Shown: positions 1-25,951 of the stretch, piece by piece
How the letters are laid out: each line of letters opens with the position of its first letter
Position numbering within the stretch: the first letter of the stretch is position 1
IMG/VR virus record: IMGVR_UViG_3300035145_003993
Location: 62,001 to 126,000 of that record
Origin: a virus
Direction: 5' to 3' (one strand)
DNA length: 64,000 nt
The notes under the pieces: model-generated
The model's input: only the letters and a program-made list of their open reading frames with translations
Told to the model about the DNA's origin: nothing
The model's database searches: none
Translations under genes and position numbers: made by a program

Positions 1-3000
1 AAAGAATTGCCTAATGTTGTATACTTTCTTAAGATAAAATTTCAGTGTAATGCTACTTGGGGGATTATTTATGTTCGAACTGACTTCATCGTTATAAAAA
101 TAAGCGTTTAAATCTTGCGCGTTATATATACCACCATCACCACTCGTATTATTGTTATAATAGATACCAGTTGAAGAAGAATACAAAATTCCACCTTCAT
201 TGAATGGTAAAAGACCATAATCTCGGCCATCAACGTGTCTCTCTGAATTTAAAGAATGAGGATTTACGTATGTAGGTATTCTTCCTGCTGGAAGTGTATT
301 TAATTGAACACTATTTTGAGTAGCTGTATACGGGTTAAGTCTACACATACTATTAATATCATTAGGATTAGGCTTAAAAGAAACAGTAAACACTTTATAG
401 TTGGTCCTGAAAACTCCTTGTGCATCTAAAGTATTAAAATTAACTTTTAATGTTAACGGTGTATTTGGACCGTATAAGCTATACCATAATTCTGATTCAG
501 GCAAACAAACATGAGAATTTCCATATCTATTAGGAAGAAAACCAGATAAATTATTTCCTGTTAAAGGGTCCCGGTCTCTGCCTATTTTGTTTGGATCATC
601 CCAATGATCATTTATTTTTTTTCCATTTCTCCACTCTATTTCTCCAAGATAATTTTCATCTCGGATTAAGTCTATTCCTCCATCATATTTTAATCCATAC
701 AACATTGTGTTTTGATCATAATTTGATTTTGAATAATTCTTTGCATAACCAGAGTAGTTGCACTGCAGGGTAACAAAATTTACATTAACGACATTATTTA
801 TATTACTCGGGAATATAGAAACTGATTGTGGCTTATTACCATTATCAAATGTATCGTCAACATTATTCATATAAACATCGTAACTTGTAGGCTCGCTACT
901 TAAAGTCTGTGAAGAATTTTCTAAAACAAATGCTCTAACAGCTTGCGCTGTAACTAGATTATTATGTTTGTTGTCAGCAGCAATTTCTTCATCTAAACTT
1001 TGCAACACGTTAACTTCTGTTACAGAATTATTCGGGTCGTCATTATCAGCATTTGCATCGTTTGTAACACTACCTAAGACTTTGTAGTTATTCATTGTCT
1101 TAAGTTTGTCATTTGTAATTGTATCATTGGCGATATTACCGCCAACAATTGATGTTGCTGCGATTGAACCGGTTGCTGTGCCTTGAGCATCAACACCACC
1201 AGTAACTGCTCCATTTTCTATGTTTAAAGTCTGTACTTTACCAGCTTCAGCTGTGTTTGCTTCTGTATATCTTAAAACATCACCTGTTGCTCCAGTCGGA
1301 AGAGAAAATGCTGCTTCTTGCCCTTCAACATTGTAAGGTGAAGAAATAATCCAACCAGAGAATTCTGATCCTCGGCCGCTTACAGGATTACTCCAGATCT
1401 TTTTCCAAGTAATATCAATGTAAGGAATATCAGAAGTATTAAATTGAATGACTTTTTGATTAACTAGGAATTCTGATGTATTTGAACTGTTTGTGGTGCC
1501 AATTAATTTTTTGTAGATACTACCTTGTGAATTAATTGTTACTTTTTTAATTGTGCCACTAGCTAGAAAATAAATTCTAGTAGAATCGTTGTGTGACAAG
1601 TTATCCCAAGCATTAATTTGATTATTTATCGGCAAATTCAGAGTAACTTGTTGTTCTGAATTTGTAAATACGTAATAATCTTTGAATTTGAAAAATCTTT
1701 CCTCTAATGCAATTACTTGGCCCCAATTATAAGTATTATTTGTATTAACTGGTCTAACAAGTTGAGTGTAGCTATGAAGTCTTTTTTTCTTTTCGTCTTT
1801 TGCTCTCCACGAGCCATTATGGTAAACAAATATTAACTTACTAGTTTCTTGCAAGTCAGTCCAAGAATATGTGCATGTTTTAGAGGTAGAAAGTACTATA
1901 TTAACTTTTGCAGAACCTAAATTACTATCATTAACATTATTAACATGTGTAACTGGAATAATTTCTATTGTTTTAAGTTCATCAGCCGTATTTGGTAGAG
2001 TAAACGTATATTCTATAGTATCATTATTTCTAGAACTAAAAATGTAAGTATAATCTGATTCTAGCGTTATATTATTTCTAACACTAGTGCCCGCACCAGT
2101 GCCAGACACACCAATCCAATCATGTTTTCTTGCAACTCTAGAAAAAGGTATTGTATTAACTTTGTCACTATTACTACTATCTAAAACCAAAACTTTATCA
2201 TCAAGAGCAAGTTCTTCCTCAGTTAATACTGGCGCTGAACTGAAGTCTGGGGTTACAGTTAAATCACTTAAGAAATTTGAATACGAAACTCTTTTAAGCT
2301 CATTACTATCATTAGAATCTGAAATAAGGACGAAGTCACCTGGATCAGGCTTAAAAATGCTTACACCGTCAACAACTTTAACTTTAATAGTTTGCATTGA
2401 AATTACAGATTTGTCAAGATGTCTGGCTAAAACAGAATCATCTTTGTATTTAGCTTGCCATGGATTGGTTCTTGCACTATCGTAAGTAAACGATATATCT
2501 GAGTCGTCAAAAGTCAAAAGCACGTGTTCTTTAATTTTTTGTGCAGTTACATTCTTTTTTGCACCTGGGTTTTCTGAAACGTCTAGCATGACAAATTGGT
2601 CTGTCGAAGCAATGTCTCCACTTAAAGCTGTTGATGGCCATGTAAAGTCTGCTGCAGCTGAAGCAGTAATGCCTCCATTGTCATTTAGCGCTGCTACGAG
2701 GTTTGAAATACTTACGTCTAAGTTGTCTTCATTATCAATATAAACAAATCTATCAGGATTTGCAATTAGTTGACCGGGATTTGCAGGATCATCGATTTGA
2801 TCAGGCTTGACATTGATATTTAAAGTATTACCAGTAAGTGTTAAACCAGCGCCTCCTTGGATTTCACCTGCACCAGAAAACTTAACAAACGTGATATCAT
2901 CTGTGTTTACTGTGTCACTATTTGAATCGCTCGTGCAGATAAATCCGTTACCTTTATTTGTATCACCATGTTCTACATAAATAAAACTACCACTTGCTTG

Positions 3001-15830: not shown

Positions 15831-16694
15831 ATGTCGATAAGATTAGATGAAAATACTGTTGAAGCTAATATTGCAATTGTTTTAACTGATATTATCGGAT
15901 CGACTAAGTTTGTTCAAAAAAATGGATCATATACAGCAGCAAAATGGTTTGGAGCACACGATAAAGCTGTTATGAATTTTATTGCAAGACATAACGGACA
16001 GCTTATAGATGCTTCTGATGGACATTTAATGATGTTTTCTACAGTTGTTGATGCAATTGGTTTTTCATTTGAATATAAAAAATATTTAAGAAAGAAAAAA
16101 TTCCCTTTCAGGAGTCGCGTTGGTATACACTGGGACAAGATGTTAATCGTAAAGTCTGAAGCACATATTGTAAGAGCTGGAGGAAAGCGAATAAATCTAG
16201 AAGGTATAGGCAAAAACATTGCAGCACGTACTATGTCAATATGTGGTGAAGAACAAATCCTTATGTCAAGCCAAGCTTATATGCAATACAAAAAATTTGG
16301 TCATAGGAGTAACTACATACCTCAAAAAGCACTATCAGCCTTAGTCGGACTCTATTCCTTTAAAGGGGTTTCAGAACCTGAAGCTATTTACGCGATTGGT
16401 TTGATTGAGGCACAGCTTCAACCACCACCTGACGGTGAAAAAGCAAAAAGAATTGGTGGAGCTAGAAAAATAAGAACGAGACTAAGAAACAAAAACCTGA
16501 AAGAATTAGTTTGGTGGATAACATTAAAAATTTTTTGGATTTCTTTGGTTTTTATTTTTGTTTTTTTGATAAAAACAGCAGATAATTTCCATACTAATAG
16601 TATGTTTTATACTCTAACTGGCATCGATTTAAATTATTATATTGGATGGATTATTCCATTGTTTAACCAAATAGTTGAGTTGTTAAAAACTTAA
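15831..16694 (+). CDS. Class III nucleotide cyclase with C-terminal membrane anchor (287 aa)
   Basis: Residues about 14-185 form a class III cyclase homology domain. Both metal-binding Asp are present: D20 in IVLTDIIGSTKF and D63 in LIDASDGHLMMF. SRVGIHWDKMLIV and GIGKNIAARTMSICGEEQI are the usual central and dimer-arm motifs, and YSFKGVSEPEAIYAI is the typical domain end. The usual Lys before the second Asp is not evident, so the base used (A, G, C or U) cannot be called. A basic linker leads to a TM segment at about 223-247 and a weaker one at about 268-285, so it would be membrane-tethered. It is a lone plus-strand gene whose 3' end overlaps the next minus-strand gene by 12 bp. It may be a cargo gene; the DNA seems slightly less AT-rich than neighbours. 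Confidence 0.82.
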   Translation: MSIRLDENTVEANIAIVLTDIIGSTKFVQKNGSYTAAKWFGAHDKAVMNFIARHNGQLIDASDGHLMMFSTVVDAIGFSFEYKKYLRKKKFPFRSRVGIHWDKMLIVKSEAHIVRAGGKRINLEGIGKNIAARTMSICGEEQILMSSQAYMQYKKFGHRSNYIPQKALSALVGLYSFKGVSEPEAIYAIGLIEAQLQPPPDGEKAKRIGGARKIRTRLRNKNLKELVWWITLKIFWISLVFIFVFLIKTADNFHTNSMFYTLTGIDLNYYIGWIIPLFNQIVELLKT

Positions 16695-18982: not shown

Positions 18983-19288
18983 TTAATTACACCACCAGTC
19001 ATCAAAAGAACCAAAATCTATTTGCTCATATAGACTATCAGGTATGCTTCCAACACAATCGTAACTAAACCATTCTCCTTCAAGTCTATACTTTCTTAAC
19101 TTCTCGTGTAATATTTTTTCTTTCCACCCAATATTTTTAAACTCTGCTATTAATTTCAGTCTATTAGGATTACCCGTTTGAAGCTGTTTTAATCTTTTTT
19201 GTGGGTCTTTAGATCTACCTATTTTTATCATTCCAGTTTTGTCTGATTGAATTAGATATAAACTGTCTTTGTTCATTTTAACACTCAT
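18983..19288 (-). CDS. GIY-YIG-like (T5orf172/Mug113) protein (101 aa)
   Basis: DSLYLIQSDKTGMIKIGRSK, then DPQKRLKQLQTGNP, then EKILHEKLRKYRLEGEWFSY match the T5orf172/Mug113 group of GIY-YIG domains: YLI for GIY, IKIGRS for the second strand, R in the helix, and E/H in LHxxLxxxRxxGEWF. At 101 residues it is essentially the bare catalytic domain with no DNA-binding extension. It may be a small nuclease or free-standing homing-type gene, inserted opposite to both neighbours in the lysis region. Confidence 0.75.
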   Translation of the reverse strand: MSVKMNKDSLYLIQSDKTGMIKIGRSKDPQKRLKQLQTGNPNRLKLIAEFKNIGWKEKILHEKLRKYRLEGEWFSYDCVGSIPDSLYEQIDFGSFDDWWCN

Positions 19289-19322: not shown

Positions 19323-20606
19323 ATGATTATTGTAACAGAAAATAAAAAAAATCACTATATGATTAAAAATTTTTTAATTGATTTTAAATCTTATCAAAAT
19401 ATAAATGAGAGTAGTAATGATAAAACTCATAAGTTCCACAAGGCATTTAATGATATGCCTGGACAAGACAATCCTGTTGGTTTTTATCCAAAAGTAAAAG
19501 ATAAAGAAAATGAGATAATCACAGACAAAGATATCACTAGGATTGCAACAGATGAGGAAATAGAATTTGTTGCTAATAAAAATAAAAAATATAAAAAATT
19601 TTTAAACAAATTTATCAATACAGCAAAAGTTTTACCATTTATGGCAGCTGTCTTATTATATAATTCAACACATATAGGATCTCCACAACATTATAAAGCT
19701 GTCGAGTTAATAAATGATGCAAATGAAAACGTTCAAGAAGAAGTTGATTTTAATGAAAAAAAATTATCATTGACAAAAAACGAAAAAGATATATTTATAG
19801 CTATAAAAAATAATCAATATGCATTTGATGGAGTTACTCAACAAAATGAAACTTCTTTGTATAATTTTGAAGGTTTTGCTTCAGAACCTTATAAAGATGC
19901 TGGAGGAATGTCGATAGGTTACGGAACTCAGCTTTTTTCAAAATGGAAAAATCCAAATAACTCAGGTTGGCAAAAAGTATTTTTTGAAAATATTCTAGGT
20001 AATCAAAAAACAAATAATCCAAAAACAGTTATAAGAAATGATATTGAAACAAAATTATCTGATATTACTAGTATTACTAAAAATGAAGCACGTAAAGCTA
20101 TAAATAAAATTCTTAAAAATAGAATAAAGTCTTTAGATTCTTACATTTTAGAACTACCAGGCACAGTACAGTTGGCTTATCTTGATATGACGATTAATAT
20201 GGGAGAAAATTTTAATATGCCAAAGTTTAAATCTCAATTGAAATACACATCAGATTTAATCAAAGAAGGAGAATTTGAAGTAGCAATTCAGGCTTTATCC
20301 GCTTCAATGAATCAAGCAGAGTTTAAAGTTGACCCTAATTATTTATCAATTATGCATTCTGATGATGAAAGTTATGATCCTTCAAAAGAAATTTATAGAT
20401 CTGCTTGGGCTACACAAAGTAAAAAAGCTTATTTAGCTAGTTCTGAAGAAGGAGAAATTCATAGGAGACCAAGATTCCTTTTAAGTTTAATGCAAGAAGG
20501 AGTTGACTTATTAAGAAGTAAATTAAATACTAAAAAAGAAAATACTAAAAAAGATGTTAACGAATCATATAGTATTAAAAGATTATACAAACATTTATTT
20601 GTATAA
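19323..20606 (+). CDS. GH24 (T4 lysozyme-like) endolysin with long N-terminus (427 aa)
   Basis: The catalytic domain starts near residue 180: NFEGFASEPYKDAGGMSIGY has E183 and D192 with the T4 Glu-x8-Asp spacing, but the loop is one residue shorter and Ser197 replaces the usual Thr. LPGTVQLAYLDMTINMGENF is the later conserved helix. The 180-residue N-terminal part is unusual, with a hydrophobic stretch (FINTAKVLPFMAAVLLYNST) near 100-118 that could be a signal-anchor. Its first 30 residues end SYQNINES, an I-N-E motif like those of the candidate head cargo. SD AAAGGA precedes the start. It either lyses cells or enters with the virion. Confidence 0.85.
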   Translation: MIIVTENKKNHYMIKNFLIDFKSYQNINESSNDKTHKFHKAFNDMPGQDNPVGFYPKVKDKENEIITDKDITRIATDEEIEFVANKNKKYKKFLNKFINTAKVLPFMAAVLLYNSTHIGSPQHYKAVELINDANENVQEEVDFNEKKLSLTKNEKDIFIAIKNNQYAFDGVTQQNETSLYNFEGFASEPYKDAGGMSIGYGTQLFSKWKNPNNSGWQKVFFENILGNQKTNNPKTVIRNDIETKLSDITSITKNEARKAINKILKNRIKSLDSYILELPGTVQLAYLDMTINMGENFNMPKFKSQLKYTSDLIKEGEFEVAIQALSASMNQAEFKVDPNYLSIMHSDDESYDPSKEIYRSAWATQSKKAYLASSEEGEIHRRPRFLLSLMQEGVDLLRSKLNTKKENTKKDVNESYSIKRLYKHLFV

Positions 20607-21809: not shown

Positions 21810-22790
21810 TTAAATATTTACATCAAAATCTAAAATTCTTATCGACTCGGGAGAAGCATTTTCAATATTACTTAAAACAATTCCAATATTATCTTCATGT
21901 AAATCTGACGTTGTAATATAACCTAAAATTTTTTTAAAGAAAATTATATCTTTTCCAAAATCTACTTCACTAAAATCTTTAACCAAAGATAATTTAGACA
22001 TTTGTTCATAAATTGTTTGGTTACTTATATTAGGAAAAATTGAATCTAATTTTCCTGTTCTTTTTATTTTAGACACTTTTTCTTTAATCTCTTCCCCAAA
22101 TTCAGGAAATAGTTTTGTAAAAGATAAATAATCCCGGTGTAAATCATAATCACTTAAATCTAATTTTGATTTTTTTAATTTTCTTCTTTCAAAATGTACT
22201 AAACTCATCAACGTTTTTGTAATAAACTCTTTAAAATTTTTAGAGTCTTTTTTAAATTTATTATTTTCTCCTTCTAAACAATTCCAAAAAGTTGGAAAAA
22301 TTTTCTTTAATAAATTTAAATCTTGTATTTTATCTAATTGAACAACTTTTTCGCTAATTACCCACCAAGGATTTGAGTTAATTTTGTCCCAAGAATATAT
22401 TTGTACAAATCCTTCTTGAGCACCTGATCCATGTTTTCTATTAATTTGTATATCTAATTCTTTTTTATTATTTATTGCACCTGAAATGTTCATTGCAATT
22501 TTTAAAACCCATGGACTATTATTTAAAGAATAACCTTCTCTACTTAATCCTTGCCCTATTAAATTAATATTGTCTTTGTATAAAGTATTTTCTAACTTTT
22601 GATAAATCAAAGAAGTCTTGTCACGATAATAGTCATAATCATCTTCAGAGACAGATTCTTTAAATTTTAATATGACATTTTGCAGCATATCAGAATATTT
22701 TTTTATCTCTTTATCATCTGAAGATTTGAGGCTTTCATTTAAAAACTTGTTCCAGTCTTCGATTAATAAATTCCATTCTTTATTATTCAT
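21810..22790 (-). CDS. Candidate injected protein with kinase-like layout (326 aa)
   Basis: Residues 1-20 (MNNKEWNLLIEDWNKFLNES) contain L-N-E19 followed by S, fitting the T4 prohead-protease rule, and match the starts of neighbouring proteins. The body follows a protein/small-molecule kinase layout: glycine-rich loop NLIGQGLSREGY at 76-87, candidate Lys97 in WVLKIAM, Glu111, catalytic-loop-like DLHEDNIGI at 296-303 and metal-loop-like ILDFD at 319-323. The catalytic-loop order D-x-H-x-x-N differs slightly from HRD kinases but occurs in choline-kinase-like folds. It is the last gene of the minus-strand cargo cluster. Kinase activity is inferred. Confidence 0.55.
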   Translation of the reverse strand: MNNKEWNLLIEDWNKFLNESLKSSDDKEIKKYSDMLQNVILKFKESVSEDDYDYYRDKTSLIYQKLENTLYKDNINLIGQGLSREGYSLNNSPWVLKIAMNISGAINNKKELDIQINRKHGSGAQEGFVQIYSWDKINSNPWWVISEKVVQLDKIQDLNLLKKIFPTFWNCLEGENNKFKKDSKNFKEFITKTLMSLVHFERRKLKKSKLDLSDYDLHRDYLSFTKLFPEFGEEIKEKVSKIKRTGKLDSIFPNISNQTIYEQMSKLSLVKDFSEVDFGKDIIFFKKILGYITTSDLHEDNIGIVLSNIENASPESIRILDFDVNI

Positions 22791-22883
22791 AATTTTCTTT
22801 CTGATTTTTGAAATATTATATTATATATTTTACAATATAATTAAAAGAAAATTAAAATAACTTAAACGTAGTAATTTTAAATT

Positions 22884-23237
22884 TTAACCGTCAAATTCAT
22901 CATCGTCAGGAAAAGGATTCCCTTCAGTATCAAGTCCTATATTAAAGAGCATGTTTTCATTATATCTATTAAGAAAATCATTGATTTCTTCATTTGAAAT
23001 ATTTCTTCCCGTCAATTGTCTTCCAAATCTTCTTAAAAATTCTCGATTGTTATTTGCTCTTTCTTCATCTGATCGTTTAATATCTTCAATTTGGCTTTCA
23101 ACGTCTGAAAGAGCTAAACTTGTTGGATCTTGTCCATCATCTGGTAGAGGTGCAAAAATATCATCATCATCATTATAATTGTTTTCTGCAATAACTTTTC
23201 TTATAATACTTCTTAACTTACTCTCTGTTATTTTCAT
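22884..23237 (-). CDS. Candidate internal head protein with CTS-like peptide (117 aa)
   Basis: The first 18 residues (MKITESKLRSIIRKVIAE) are nearly the same as those of the products at 24883 and 25490, and I-A-E18 followed by N fits T4 gp21 cleavage. The remaining about 99 residues are acidic and low-complexity (DDDDIFAPLPDDGQDPT, then a RSDEERANNNREFLRRFGRQ helix, ending FPDDDEFDG). No enzyme motif is seen. A TATAAATA box lies 35 bp upstream, consistent with late expression. Confidence 0.6.
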   Translation of the reverse strand: MKITESKLRSIIRKVIAENNYNDDDDIFAPLPDDGQDPTSLALSDVESQIEDIKRSDEERANNNREFLRRFGRQLTGRNISNEEINDFLNRYNENMLFNIGLDTEGNPFPDDDEFDG

Positions 23238-23271
23238 ATAAACTCCTATTAAGTCTTATTTTATATATTAT

Positions 23272-23279
23272 TATTTATA
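23272..23279 (-). promoter_or_regulatory. T4-type late promoter box TATAAATA
   Basis: Exact TATAAATA on the minus strand 35 bp upstream of the CTS-type gene ending at 22884, a natural distance for a T4-like late promoter. Confidence 0.5.
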
Positions 23280-23371
23280 TATATTATTGTTTAAATAAAT
23301 ATCATATAAATTATGAATATAGATTAAGGTCATCCAGAAAATAGACACCTTATTCGAGAAATAATTTACTT

Positions 23372-23917
23372 TTATACTTCAATAAAGTCAATAAACGACG
23401 ATTCACGTAATTTTTTCAATACAATCAACTCGCCAACTTTATAATAACACTTAGATAAAGAACTATCAATATCTCCTGAAAGTTGATGATACTCAATATC
23501 AGGCCTCATCATATACTTATCCCACACACTTTTAGCATCATCAGACACTTTACCACGATCACTCATCAAACAAACACCCTCCTCCGACGCCTTTTCAATC
23601 AATATTTCATAAAGTAAAGGCCCAAAACCTTTAGTCACAGGAAAAGTCTCAAATATAAAAAAGTTTCCTGATGATCTTTCACTCAATTCTCTTTCAAAAT
23701 CAATCGCTCCACTCACCACATCATCCTTAACATCATACTCAACTCGACCATAGTCTCCATCCAGATCGTATACAATCTTAACCTTACTCCCGTTTCGAGA
23801 TATTTCTTCAAGATTGTTAACAATCCTTAATATACTCTCTACACTCGCTACTTCAAAGCTCTCACTTAAAGAAACACGCCATCCTTCAACTAACTCTCGA
23901 TACTCTTTTCGATTCAT
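23372..23917 (-). CDS. GNAT-like candidate injected protein (181 aa)
   Basis: The start MNRKEYRELVEGWRVSLSES is a CTS-like peptide with L-S-E19 followed by S. The C-terminal half contains FETFPVTKGFGPLLYEILIE, then GVCLMSDRGKVSDDAKSVWD, the pattern of phage proteins annotated as GNAT-like acetyltransferases (the G-x-G-P-L-L-Y turn replaces the acetyl-CoA loop). Its coding strand is very rich in G and poor in C, unlike neighbours; it resembles only the genes at 35568-36151 in this respect. Likely packaged and injected; catalytic activity unproven. Confidence 0.6.
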   Translation of the reverse strand: MNRKEYRELVEGWRVSLSESFEVASVESILRIVNNLEEISRNGSKVKIVYDLDGDYGRVEYDVKDDVVSGAIDFERELSERSSGNFFIFETFPVTKGFGPLLYEILIEKASEEGVCLMSDRGKVSDDAKSVWDKYMMRPDIEYHQLSGDIDSSLSKCYYKVGELIVLKKLRESSFIDFIEV

Positions 23918-24040
23918 AAGTTAAATCCTGTTTGATTTTTTTACTCTGTCTATATATTTAAAAAATAAAATTTTGAATATAATTTTCTAATAACTTCATA
24001 TAAAATTCCTTTAATTATATAGTAAATATTTATTAAAATT

Positions 24041-24886
24041 CTAAGTTAAACTATTTAAACAAACAACGTTGTTTTGAAAAAGACCAATTATTTTTTTCCA
24101 CACTTCTAAAGAATCACTGTGAAAATTTTGATAAAATTCATTAAAATCTTCATAATCTTCCATTTTATCTCTAAATATATTTTCATCAACTTGATTAATA
24201 TGTCTGTTTATAATAGTAAAAGCTCCTAAACTTGGAATAAAATCCATACCACCAACGCCTTCAGTAAAACCATAATGTTTTAAAAATATCAAAGCATCGT
24301 TCTGATATATTGTTGACAGTTCACGATATCCATTTACATCTTTTAACATTGAATACTTATTTATAATATCTTTAGTAGATCTTGACATTTTATAATCTTT
24401 ATAATCATACCACCCTACGAAATCGACAATTCTATGCCAAATATCATGTACCATCCAATCTAAATTATCTTGAACTAAATTAACTTTCCCTTTATCAAGG
24501 AAATTTCCAACATTAATACAGATAAATACGGGTAATTCATCTTCAAATTCTCCACCAACACTGTCAATATCTTTCTTAGGAATAAATGACTTAATATGAT
24601 CAATTATGTTTTCATTCTTTTCGAAAATATAACATTGTTTGTGTATAAATTCAAATTGTTCATCACTCAAATATACTCTTTTTGAACCATCATATTGATC
24701 AAACATATTCGAAAATAATTTCTGATCACAGTTTATACCTATTAGCCACGCATTAAGATCAAAATTTTCTTGAGAAACTTTTTCTTTCGATAGATTTTTG
24801 TTTAACTGAAATTTGCTAAAACGTCCTTTTTCAAGTAAAAGGTTTAAAATATAACTTTCTAACAATATTTTTTCTTTTTTATTCAT
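24041..24886 (-). CDS. Candidate injected protein with His/Trp-rich core (281 aa)
   Basis: The start MNKKEKILLESYILNLLLEK has L-L-E19 at the same position as its neighbours' cleavage motifs. The core has LDWMVHDIWHRIVDFVGWYD, where HDxxH could bind a metal, and FLKHYGFTEGVGGMDFIPSL. I do not recognise the family. Its ATG overlaps the stop of the upstream gene by 4 bp, so the two are coupled. Confidence 0.55.
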   Translation of the reverse strand: MNKKEKILLESYILNLLLEKGRFSKFQLNKNLSKEKVSQENFDLNAWLIGINCDQKLFSNMFDQYDGSKRVYLSDEQFEFIHKQCYIFEKNENIIDHIKSFIPKKDIDSVGGEFEDELPVFICINVGNFLDKGKVNLVQDNLDWMVHDIWHRIVDFVGWYDYKDYKMSRSTKDIINKYSMLKDVNGYRELSTIYQNDALIFLKHYGFTEGVGGMDFIPSLGAFTIINRHINQVDENIFRDKMEDYEDFNEFYQNFHSDSLEVWKKIIGLFQNNVVCLNSLT

Positions 24887-25380
24887 TTGTCAATTCTATT
24901 TCCAAATTTATTATATTTGTTACCAAAAAAAGCTTTTCTAAATGAATCAATTTTTTTCTTATTTTCAAGATCAATTATTTTTTTTGAACTTTCTCTTGCA
25001 TCATATAACGATTTTGTTTTTAAATCAAAACCTTCAAGATAACTTATTGCGTCATTCACACATTCTTTAAATTCTATAGGATTCTCACTTTTTGTATGTT
25101 CTTCATATAGAAAATTTATAAATTTATGAAAATGTCCAGGGTCATTATAAACTTCTTTTGTCAAATTACTTAGGTCTTCACCATTAATTTTTACAAAGAC
25201 ACCAGTGTTAGGTGACATATTAATATTAAAGTATTGATCATCTTTTATAGGAAAGTTATTTTTTAATTCTCTTTCCATTTCTTCGAAAAATTTTTCTTTT
25301 GTATTATATTTTGTTATAGAACTAGATTCTTTAATTATTTGTCTTATAAGACTTCTTAATTTGTTCTCTGTTATTCTCAC
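24883..25380 (-). CDS. Candidate internal head protein with CTS-like peptide (165 aa)
   Basis: It starts with GTG after a good GGAG SD. Residues 1-18 (MRITENKLRSLIRQIIKE) match the shared peptide, with I-K-E18 then S. The body contains INMSPNTGVFVKINGEDLSN and a charged helical tail (ESSKKIIDLENKKKID); no known domain. A TATAAATA box 20 bp upstream would give a very short leader. It is coupled to the next gene by a 4-bp overlap. Confidence 0.6.
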   Translation of the reverse strand: MRITENKLRSLIRQIIKESSSITKYNTKEKFFEEMERELKNNFPIKDDQYFNINMSPNTGVFVKINGEDLSNLTKEVYNDPGHFHKFINFLYEEHTKSENPIEFKECVNDAISYLEGFDLKTKSLYDARESSKKIIDLENKKKIDSFRKAFFGNKYNKFGNRIDK

Positions 25381-25399
25381 GTTAACTCCTAAATAACTT

Positions 25400-25407
25400 T
25401 ATTTATA
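25400..25407 (-). promoter_or_regulatory. T4-type late promoter box TATAAATA
   Basis: Exact TATAAATA on the minus strand 20 bp upstream of the GTG start at 25380; the SD GGAG lies between box and start. Confidence 0.5.
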
Positions 25408-25489
25408 AATCTATATATTATCTTATATTATAAATTAAAGTCTATTCGTGATAAACGTAAGACAATCTTTTTACTTAATACTGAATTTT

Positions 25490-25951
25490 TTAACTCATTA
25501 ATTTTTTAAACTCAACTAAAACTTCTTTAATGTTTTCACTCATTTTTACAATGTCATATAAAAATATATTATTATGATCAATTTCAACTCTTACTACAGC
25601 ATAATAATCAGGTTCTGGGAATTTAAGTTGATATGGTTCTGCTTTCACCAATAAATATCCACACTCGCCCATATTATCTCGACTCCAAATTGCATTATGT
25701 CTAACAAATTCATTTGTAAACAAAGCAGCCGTATATGCATCATGTCCTAAATCCAATCCTAAATCCAATCGATCAGAAATCTTGTGTCCAATAGTAACTA
25801 ATTCGTCTCTAAGCGTATCTTCATCTAATTTCTTTACAAACAAATCAGTAAAAATTTCTTTTTCATCACGATCATGTAGGTTTTCTTCACCATATGACTC
25901 TTTAATTACTTGACGAATAATATTTCTTAATCTACTCTCTGTTATTTTCAT
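25490..25951 (-). CDS. Candidate internal head protein with CTS-like peptide (153 aa)
   Basis: Residues 1-18 (MKITESRLRNIIRQVIKE) are the best match to the shared peptide, ending I-K-E18 then S. The body contains LDLGLDLGHDAYTAALFTNE and YYAVVRVEIDHNNIFLYDIV, a mixed alpha/beta domain I do not recognise. It is the first gene of the minus-strand cargo cluster, next to the large non-coding hub. An imperfect late box (TATAAGAT) lies just upstream. Confidence 0.6.
   Translation of the reverse strand: MKITESRLRNIIRQVIKESYGEENLHDRDEKEIFTDLFVKKLDEDTLRDELVTIGHKISDRLDLGLDLGHDAYTAALFTNEFVRHNAIWSRDNMGECGYLLVKAEPYQLKFPEPDYYAVVRVEIDHNNIFLYDIVKMSENIKEVLVEFKKLMS

Follow-up and report, generated by a model that had tools for sequence, protein, structure and literature searches.

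Candidate capsid-targeting tags shared and exchanged among unrelated proteins of a large T4-type phage

The T4 internal head proteins IPII and IPIII begin with a common MKTYQEFIAE and then diverge, and their genes lie beside lysozyme gene e. Capsid-targeting sequences (CTS) of this kind, cleaved by gp21, are carried by IPI, IPII, IPIII and Alt, and the targeting mechanism is known mainly through mutagenesis of the ten-residue peptide. In IPIII, changing Glu to Asp blocks the cleavage. The CTS peptide of IPIII alone carries a foreign protein into the head, and T4 core proteins are S77 substrates as well (PMC9026906). The ejection proteins of phiKZ-like phages (SPN3US, 201phi2-1, phiKZ) offer a second comparison, in that head proteins there have N-terminal propeptides cut after Glu. 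SPN3US gp53 and gp54 have an identical N-terminus (PMC5694885).

The window analysed here is a 64,000-nucleotide stretch of viral DNA, positions 62001-126000 of the 211,364-base virus record IMGVR_UViG_3300035145_003993. Six neighbouring minus-strand ORFs in this window had been predicted, from the letters alone, to encode head-packaged proteins with gp21-type cleavable N-termini. Their resemblance to the T4 CTS is fourfold: a short N-terminal peptide ends in L/I-x-E, differing bodies stand behind one peptide, the genome encodes an S77 protease, and the genes lie near a lysozyme gene. The differences are that tags A and C (defined below) look unlike MKTYQEFIAE and that tags here span 14-20 residues rather than the 10 of IPII/IPIII. 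Moreover, a genome has three tag kinds and 13-14 tagged genes, and tag A resembles the N-termini of protease-adjacent genes. Compared by eye with MKTYQEFIAE, tag A differs and a short form of tag B in the relative G014 (MKTLLENWKKFINE) looks similar. SPN3US proteins are cut at A-x-E and several of their propeptides exceed 100 residues, in contrast to the short tags with an [IL]-x-E motif seen here.

The six ORFs were confirmed on the minus strand at the coordinates given. In 6/6 the N-terminal peptide closes with [IL]-x-E, its Glu being residue 18 or 19, and Ser follows the Glu in 4/6, in line with the original prediction that it mostly would. That prediction recognised two peptide kinds, of which the first stands as tag A (MKITE..LR.IIR..I.E) and the second, M-N-x-KE, splits into tag B (MNRKE..LVE.W..YLNE) and tag C (LLE.YI...LLE). 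Tag A, residues 1-18, begins putative cargo protein 1 (22884..23237; 117 aa, acidic; tag at 23184..23237), cargo protein 2 (24883..25380; 165 aa, with a GTG start and Arg2; tag at 25327..25380) and cargo protein 3 (25490..25951; 153 aa; tag at 25898..25951). The three tags read MKITESKLRSIIRKVIAE, MRITENKLRSLIRQIIKE and MKITESRLRNIIRQVIKE, with Glu at residue 18 in 3/3 and predicted cuts at IAE18 before Asn, IKE18 before Ser and IKE18 before Ser, respectively; no known domain was found in these proteins. Tag B, residues 1-19, begins cargo protein 4 (21810..22790; 326 aa; tag at 22734..22790, predicted cut LNE19 before Ser) and cargo protein 5 (23372..23917; 181 aa; tag at 23861..23917, predicted cut LSE19 before Ser). 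Cargo protein 6 (24041..24886; 281 aa, no known domain; residues 1-19 at 24830..24886), which had been grouped with these two, starts with MNKKEKILLESYILNLLLE, lacks the W..L core and fits tag C, also seen on other genes of the record; its possible cuts are LLE10 before Ser and LLE19 before Lys.

The bodies behind the tags gave no convincing sign of relatedness, in line with the original claim: the best match past residue 24 has E=0.43, and full-length BLAST matches are mainly N-terminal. Searches of Pfam, PHROGs and PADLOC placed none of the six proteins in a family with confidence. The body of cargo protein 4 has kinase-like motifs (GxG..R, VLK97, DxHxxN301, ILD321), and its family keeps Gly81, Lys97, Asn301 and Asp321, invariance being limited to motif residues. 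These features fit a kinase or phosphotransferase; neither Pfam nor PHROG gave a match that would identify a protein kinase, the PDB gave nothing meaningful, and the AF2 model has pLDDT 42. Cargo protein 5 has a conserved GFGPLLYE...LMSDR core, both motifs being kept in its family, and by eye its body is a candidate acetyltransferase-like domain; as a GNAT acetyltransferase it matched no curated family (AF2 pLDDT 34). A fold search from the two AF2 models was abandoned, the models being too poor. Among 89 tagged proteins, Pfam matches are few: HAD_SAK_1 (3), AAA_33 (2), PAP2, DUF5824 and DUF5710.

The original prediction had invoked the T4 prohead-protease rule and named finding the protease gene as a check. 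Profile searches of the whole record located a T4-type head module at about 2.4-14.1 kb, with gp23-type capsid, S77 protease, portal and large terminase genes. The Peptidase_S77 gene, of gp21 type, lies at C1:9180-9623 of the record (E=1.5e-29, above the cut-off; also phrog_207); therefore the protease missing from the first view of this DNA exists in the phage, beyond the window. The capsid protein is gp23-type (PF07068, E=5.1e-80), and its co-occurrence with a gp20-type portal, S77 and large terminase indicates T4-like head morphogenesis. In the capsid protein, VLRE59 and a following SS immediately precede the mature-domain region, the same [IL]xE-Ser form as in the tags. A 505-residue protein encoded beside the capsid gene, in scaffold position, has 24 [IL]xE sites where 7.3 are expected. 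Elsewhere in the record, outside the window, we noted adjacent genes for purine synthesis (133815-137436, L006:8815-12436: Lyase_1, adenylosuccinate lyase-like; adenylosuccinate synthetase; IMP dehydrogenase), a phage-encoded Cpn60-family chaperonin of 543 aa (147897-149528, L007:3897-5528), and two N-terminal regions, with NNILVHNC and NNMLVHNC, that resemble intein C-terminal pieces (167349-170444, L008; 186866-187927, L009).

The T4 late-promoter octamer TATAAATA stands no more than 80 bp upstream of 4/14 tagged genes in the record as against 6/257 others (p=8e-4), and upstream of 0/75 genes in the plus-strand block at 88-124 kb. Within the cluster it lies on the minus strand at 23272..23279, 34 bp before the start of cargo 1, and at 25400..25407, 19 bp before that of cargo 2. 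The cluster is about 1.2 kb from a lysozyme-like gene (19323..20606, plus strand), and a gene of this kind is also near in the relatives L011, L012 and G022. The I-N-E-S reported at residue 29 of this lysozyme is indeed present, making it a possible though doubtful further substrate (INE29 before Ser); at residue 20, L011 and G022 have LIE20/LSE20 versus LID20 in the window. Relatives of this lysozyme keep MII[IV][TA]ENKKNHY[LM]IK.F, and PHROG links it weakly (E=0.0035) to an internal virion lysozyme motif. Adjoining it at 18983-19288 is a T5orf172/MUG113 (GIY-YIG-type) protein, kept in relatives. The protein at 15831-16694, also found in L011 and L012, has a start containing IAIVLTDIIGSTKFVQKNG, reminiscent of class III nucleotidyl cyclases, and no Pfam match.

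Searching all genes of the record for the peptides extended the system across much of the genome: 14/271 genes match one of three tag regexes, compared with 0/889 internal start codons, and in the relative G022 the figures are 13/295 genes and 0/1066 internal starts. A UvdE-type UV endonuclease outside the window (137495-138466, L006:12495-13466) has an N-terminal extension, MYNIKKFKFLLNEG, ahead of its domain, and may be either tagged cargo or a protein whose true start is Met18. Because the regexes were partly shaped on these same two genomes, retrieval by residues 1-13 of tag A is the firmer test. A tblastn search of the phage collection with a 20-residue tag A query returned no match, so patterns were adopted instead. 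The pattern, limited to residues 1-13, was run on 2.9 million viral contigs and retrieved at least 80 viral stretches. Among 91 non-redundant tag A relatives, [IL]xE occurs at residues 14-27 in 74, compared with 14.1 ± 3.3 after shuffling (maximum 25 in 500 shuffles), and the control window 31-44 gives 9. Ser is the commonest residue after the Glu of these relatives. About 14% of tag A proteins are without [ILVM]xE at the expected place, which counts against the reading of targeting with cleavage. The alignment of the 89 tagged proteins is nearly invariant only at M1, L8 and E18. Many synonymous codons are used at conserved tag A positions; selection therefore acts on the peptide.

In 257 Gb of cellular genomes the tag A pattern was present in two stretches only, both phage-like. 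One belongs to a MAG that also holds S77, on a contig whose genes resemble those of the record's phage; the second is a 3.9-kb fragment bearing several tag A-type N-termini. As a side observation, the 305-kb contig NHDW01000006.1 of a Methylococcaceae MAG, which has genes resembling the record's and S77 in the same MAG (contig C5), is probably a misbinned phage. Among 30 tag A records, S77 was found in 10 and Gp23 in 10, both in nine, and S78 in 0/18. A portal search of tag A records gave no match anywhere, many of these records being fragments without detected S77 or portal, and a looser tag A pattern had no match in the phage isolates examined. Bare [IL]xE was rejected as a predictor: its enrichment near N-termini genome-wide is mild (2.4% versus 1.3% per position) and partly general to N-termini, since an [IL].K control rose too. 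An amphipathic-helix reading of the tags was dropped, hydrophobic moments not exceeding those of shuffles for most tags.

The genes beside the protease bear on how tag A might work. In relatives' loci, two short conserved genes (here the 7692 and 7320 families) adjoin S77, and their N-termini are tag A-like. A position matrix built from strict tag A proved too restrictive for scoring these genes, and profile-profile comparison with controls was used instead. By HHalign, tag A aligns in register with both families (Prob 72, E 3e-5; Prob 88, E 3e-6), E-values that represent single comparisons against N-termini picked after being seen; the protease, the capsid protein and the 9688 family, used as controls, all gave Prob <1. 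Profile comparison of tags B and C with the protease-adjacent families gave nothing significant. By eye, protease-adjacent genes in L094 (MKNEEFKIINERWDRYLKEE) and in Flavobacterium phage immuto (MENNFDIHKWQAKFLKES) are B-like. Judged by gene position, we infer that the 7692 and 7320 products are prohead core proteins, and tag A probably acts as a mimic of their N-termini. The same likeness suits a different reading, in which the tagged proteins belong to the core or scaffold itself and are degraded and lost in maturation instead of being delivered as cargo. The T4 core proteins, too, are S77 substrates (PMC9026906). We regard this as unlikely, since enzyme domains (HAD, AAA_33, PAP2) and kinase-like motifs occur among the bodies, body turnover between relatives is high, and the predicted cut site lies within the tag with unrelated bodies after it.

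Packaged cargo with a removable tag remains our preferred reading, and the exchange of tags between bodies points the same way. The 21810-type body has tag B in this record and in G022, tag C in L011, L012 and G023, and short B in G014. HAD_SAK_1 bodies have tag C in gene 163276 of this record and in L038 and L075 but tag B in L134, and DUF5824 bodies were found behind tag C and behind A-like tags. Conversely, the same peptide stands on unrelated bodies, as in T4-type CTS. In G022, the neighbouring genes 204612 and 205361 share exactly 43 identical nucleotides, from the ATG to one base past the Glu14 codon, with no match upstream and unrelated bodies downstream, a pattern suggestive of recent copying of the tag alone. 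That all these proteins are one paralogous family, its bodies diverged past recognition behind a retained N-terminus and without modular exchange, would suit the clustering of the genes and the occurrence of tag B in 5/5 members of the 23372 family, yet is most improbable given that homologous bodies differ in their tags, that one tag can precede unrelated domains, and that 43 nt are duplicated exactly.

DUF5824 (PF19141) provides a comparison between phages with and without S77. Gene 140736 of the record is an N-terminally tagged member (E=1.1e-13), and the domain is tagged in several large phages, one S77 isolate included; in the S77-positive Kyanoviridae phage C48C1 the member starts MITFKKYLEE. 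In contrast, [IL]xE is absent from the first 60 residues of the DUF5824 proteins in a small sample of small phages, three from Pelagibacter and a near-identical pair from Prochlorococcus, whose genomes have no detectable S77. Melnitz and HTVC008M were left out of this comparison, the domain sitting inside long proteins there. The absence of the tag from members in small S77-less phages bears on another reading, in which the peptide directs proteins elsewhere, be it to a membrane, a protein complex or a compartment built by the phage, and in which the Glu motif reflects helix chemistry and is no cut site. Localisation peptides, too, recur on unrelated bodies, and cleavage here is deduced from sequence. 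This reading is nevertheless very unlikely: besides the DUF5824 pattern, conservation ends near the Glu, the copied 43-nt module stops one base past its codon, and the motif agrees with the S77 rule and with the predicted capsid-protein site.

Taken together, the presence of S77, the tag swaps, the 43-nt copy, the viral specificity and the protease-adjacent likeness of tag A support the original reading of head-packaged proteins with gp21-type cleavable N-termini. The tags are very probably modular capsid-targeting sequences, analogous to those of T4 IPII/IPIII and removed by S77. Both packaging of the tagged proteins into the head and cleavage after the tag Glu by S77 are strongly indicated by the sequence comparisons, and injection and effector roles of the cargo less strongly. 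We propose that, during assembly, the N-terminal 14-20 residues would bind the prohead core and bring unrelated proteins into the prohead, where the phage's own gp21-type (S77) protease would cut after the Glu of [IL]-x-E. The mature cargo, thus freed, would remain inside the head, surrounding the DNA, and would probably be delivered to the next host cell. For tag A the probable mode of action is N-terminal mimicry of prohead core proteins whose genes adjoin that of the protease; tags B and C would do the same job with other sequences, and the tags would move among cargo genes as small DNA modules. The CTS principle is known from T4; new, within the literature covered, are these tags, their number, their exchange and the protease-adjacent likeness. 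No description of tags A, B or C was found in the open-access literature, subscription papers and bioRxiv being mostly outside this coverage.

Head-carried, injected proteins are normally learned only through virion proteomics of an isolate. Should these tags prove to be capsid-targeting sequences, one could list from sequence what many uncultured large phages package, proteins without a recognised domain included, and the likeness of tag A to protease-adjacent proteins offers a testable idea of the targeting mechanism. More tentatively, and somewhat less likely than not, large T4-type phages may use exchangeable, core-mimicking address peptides, spread as DNA modules, through which one phage would inject at least a dozen enzymes as a ready-made kit against host defences; kinase-like proteins, HAD and P-loop proteins reminiscent of RNA-repair parts, and DUF5824 would be among them.
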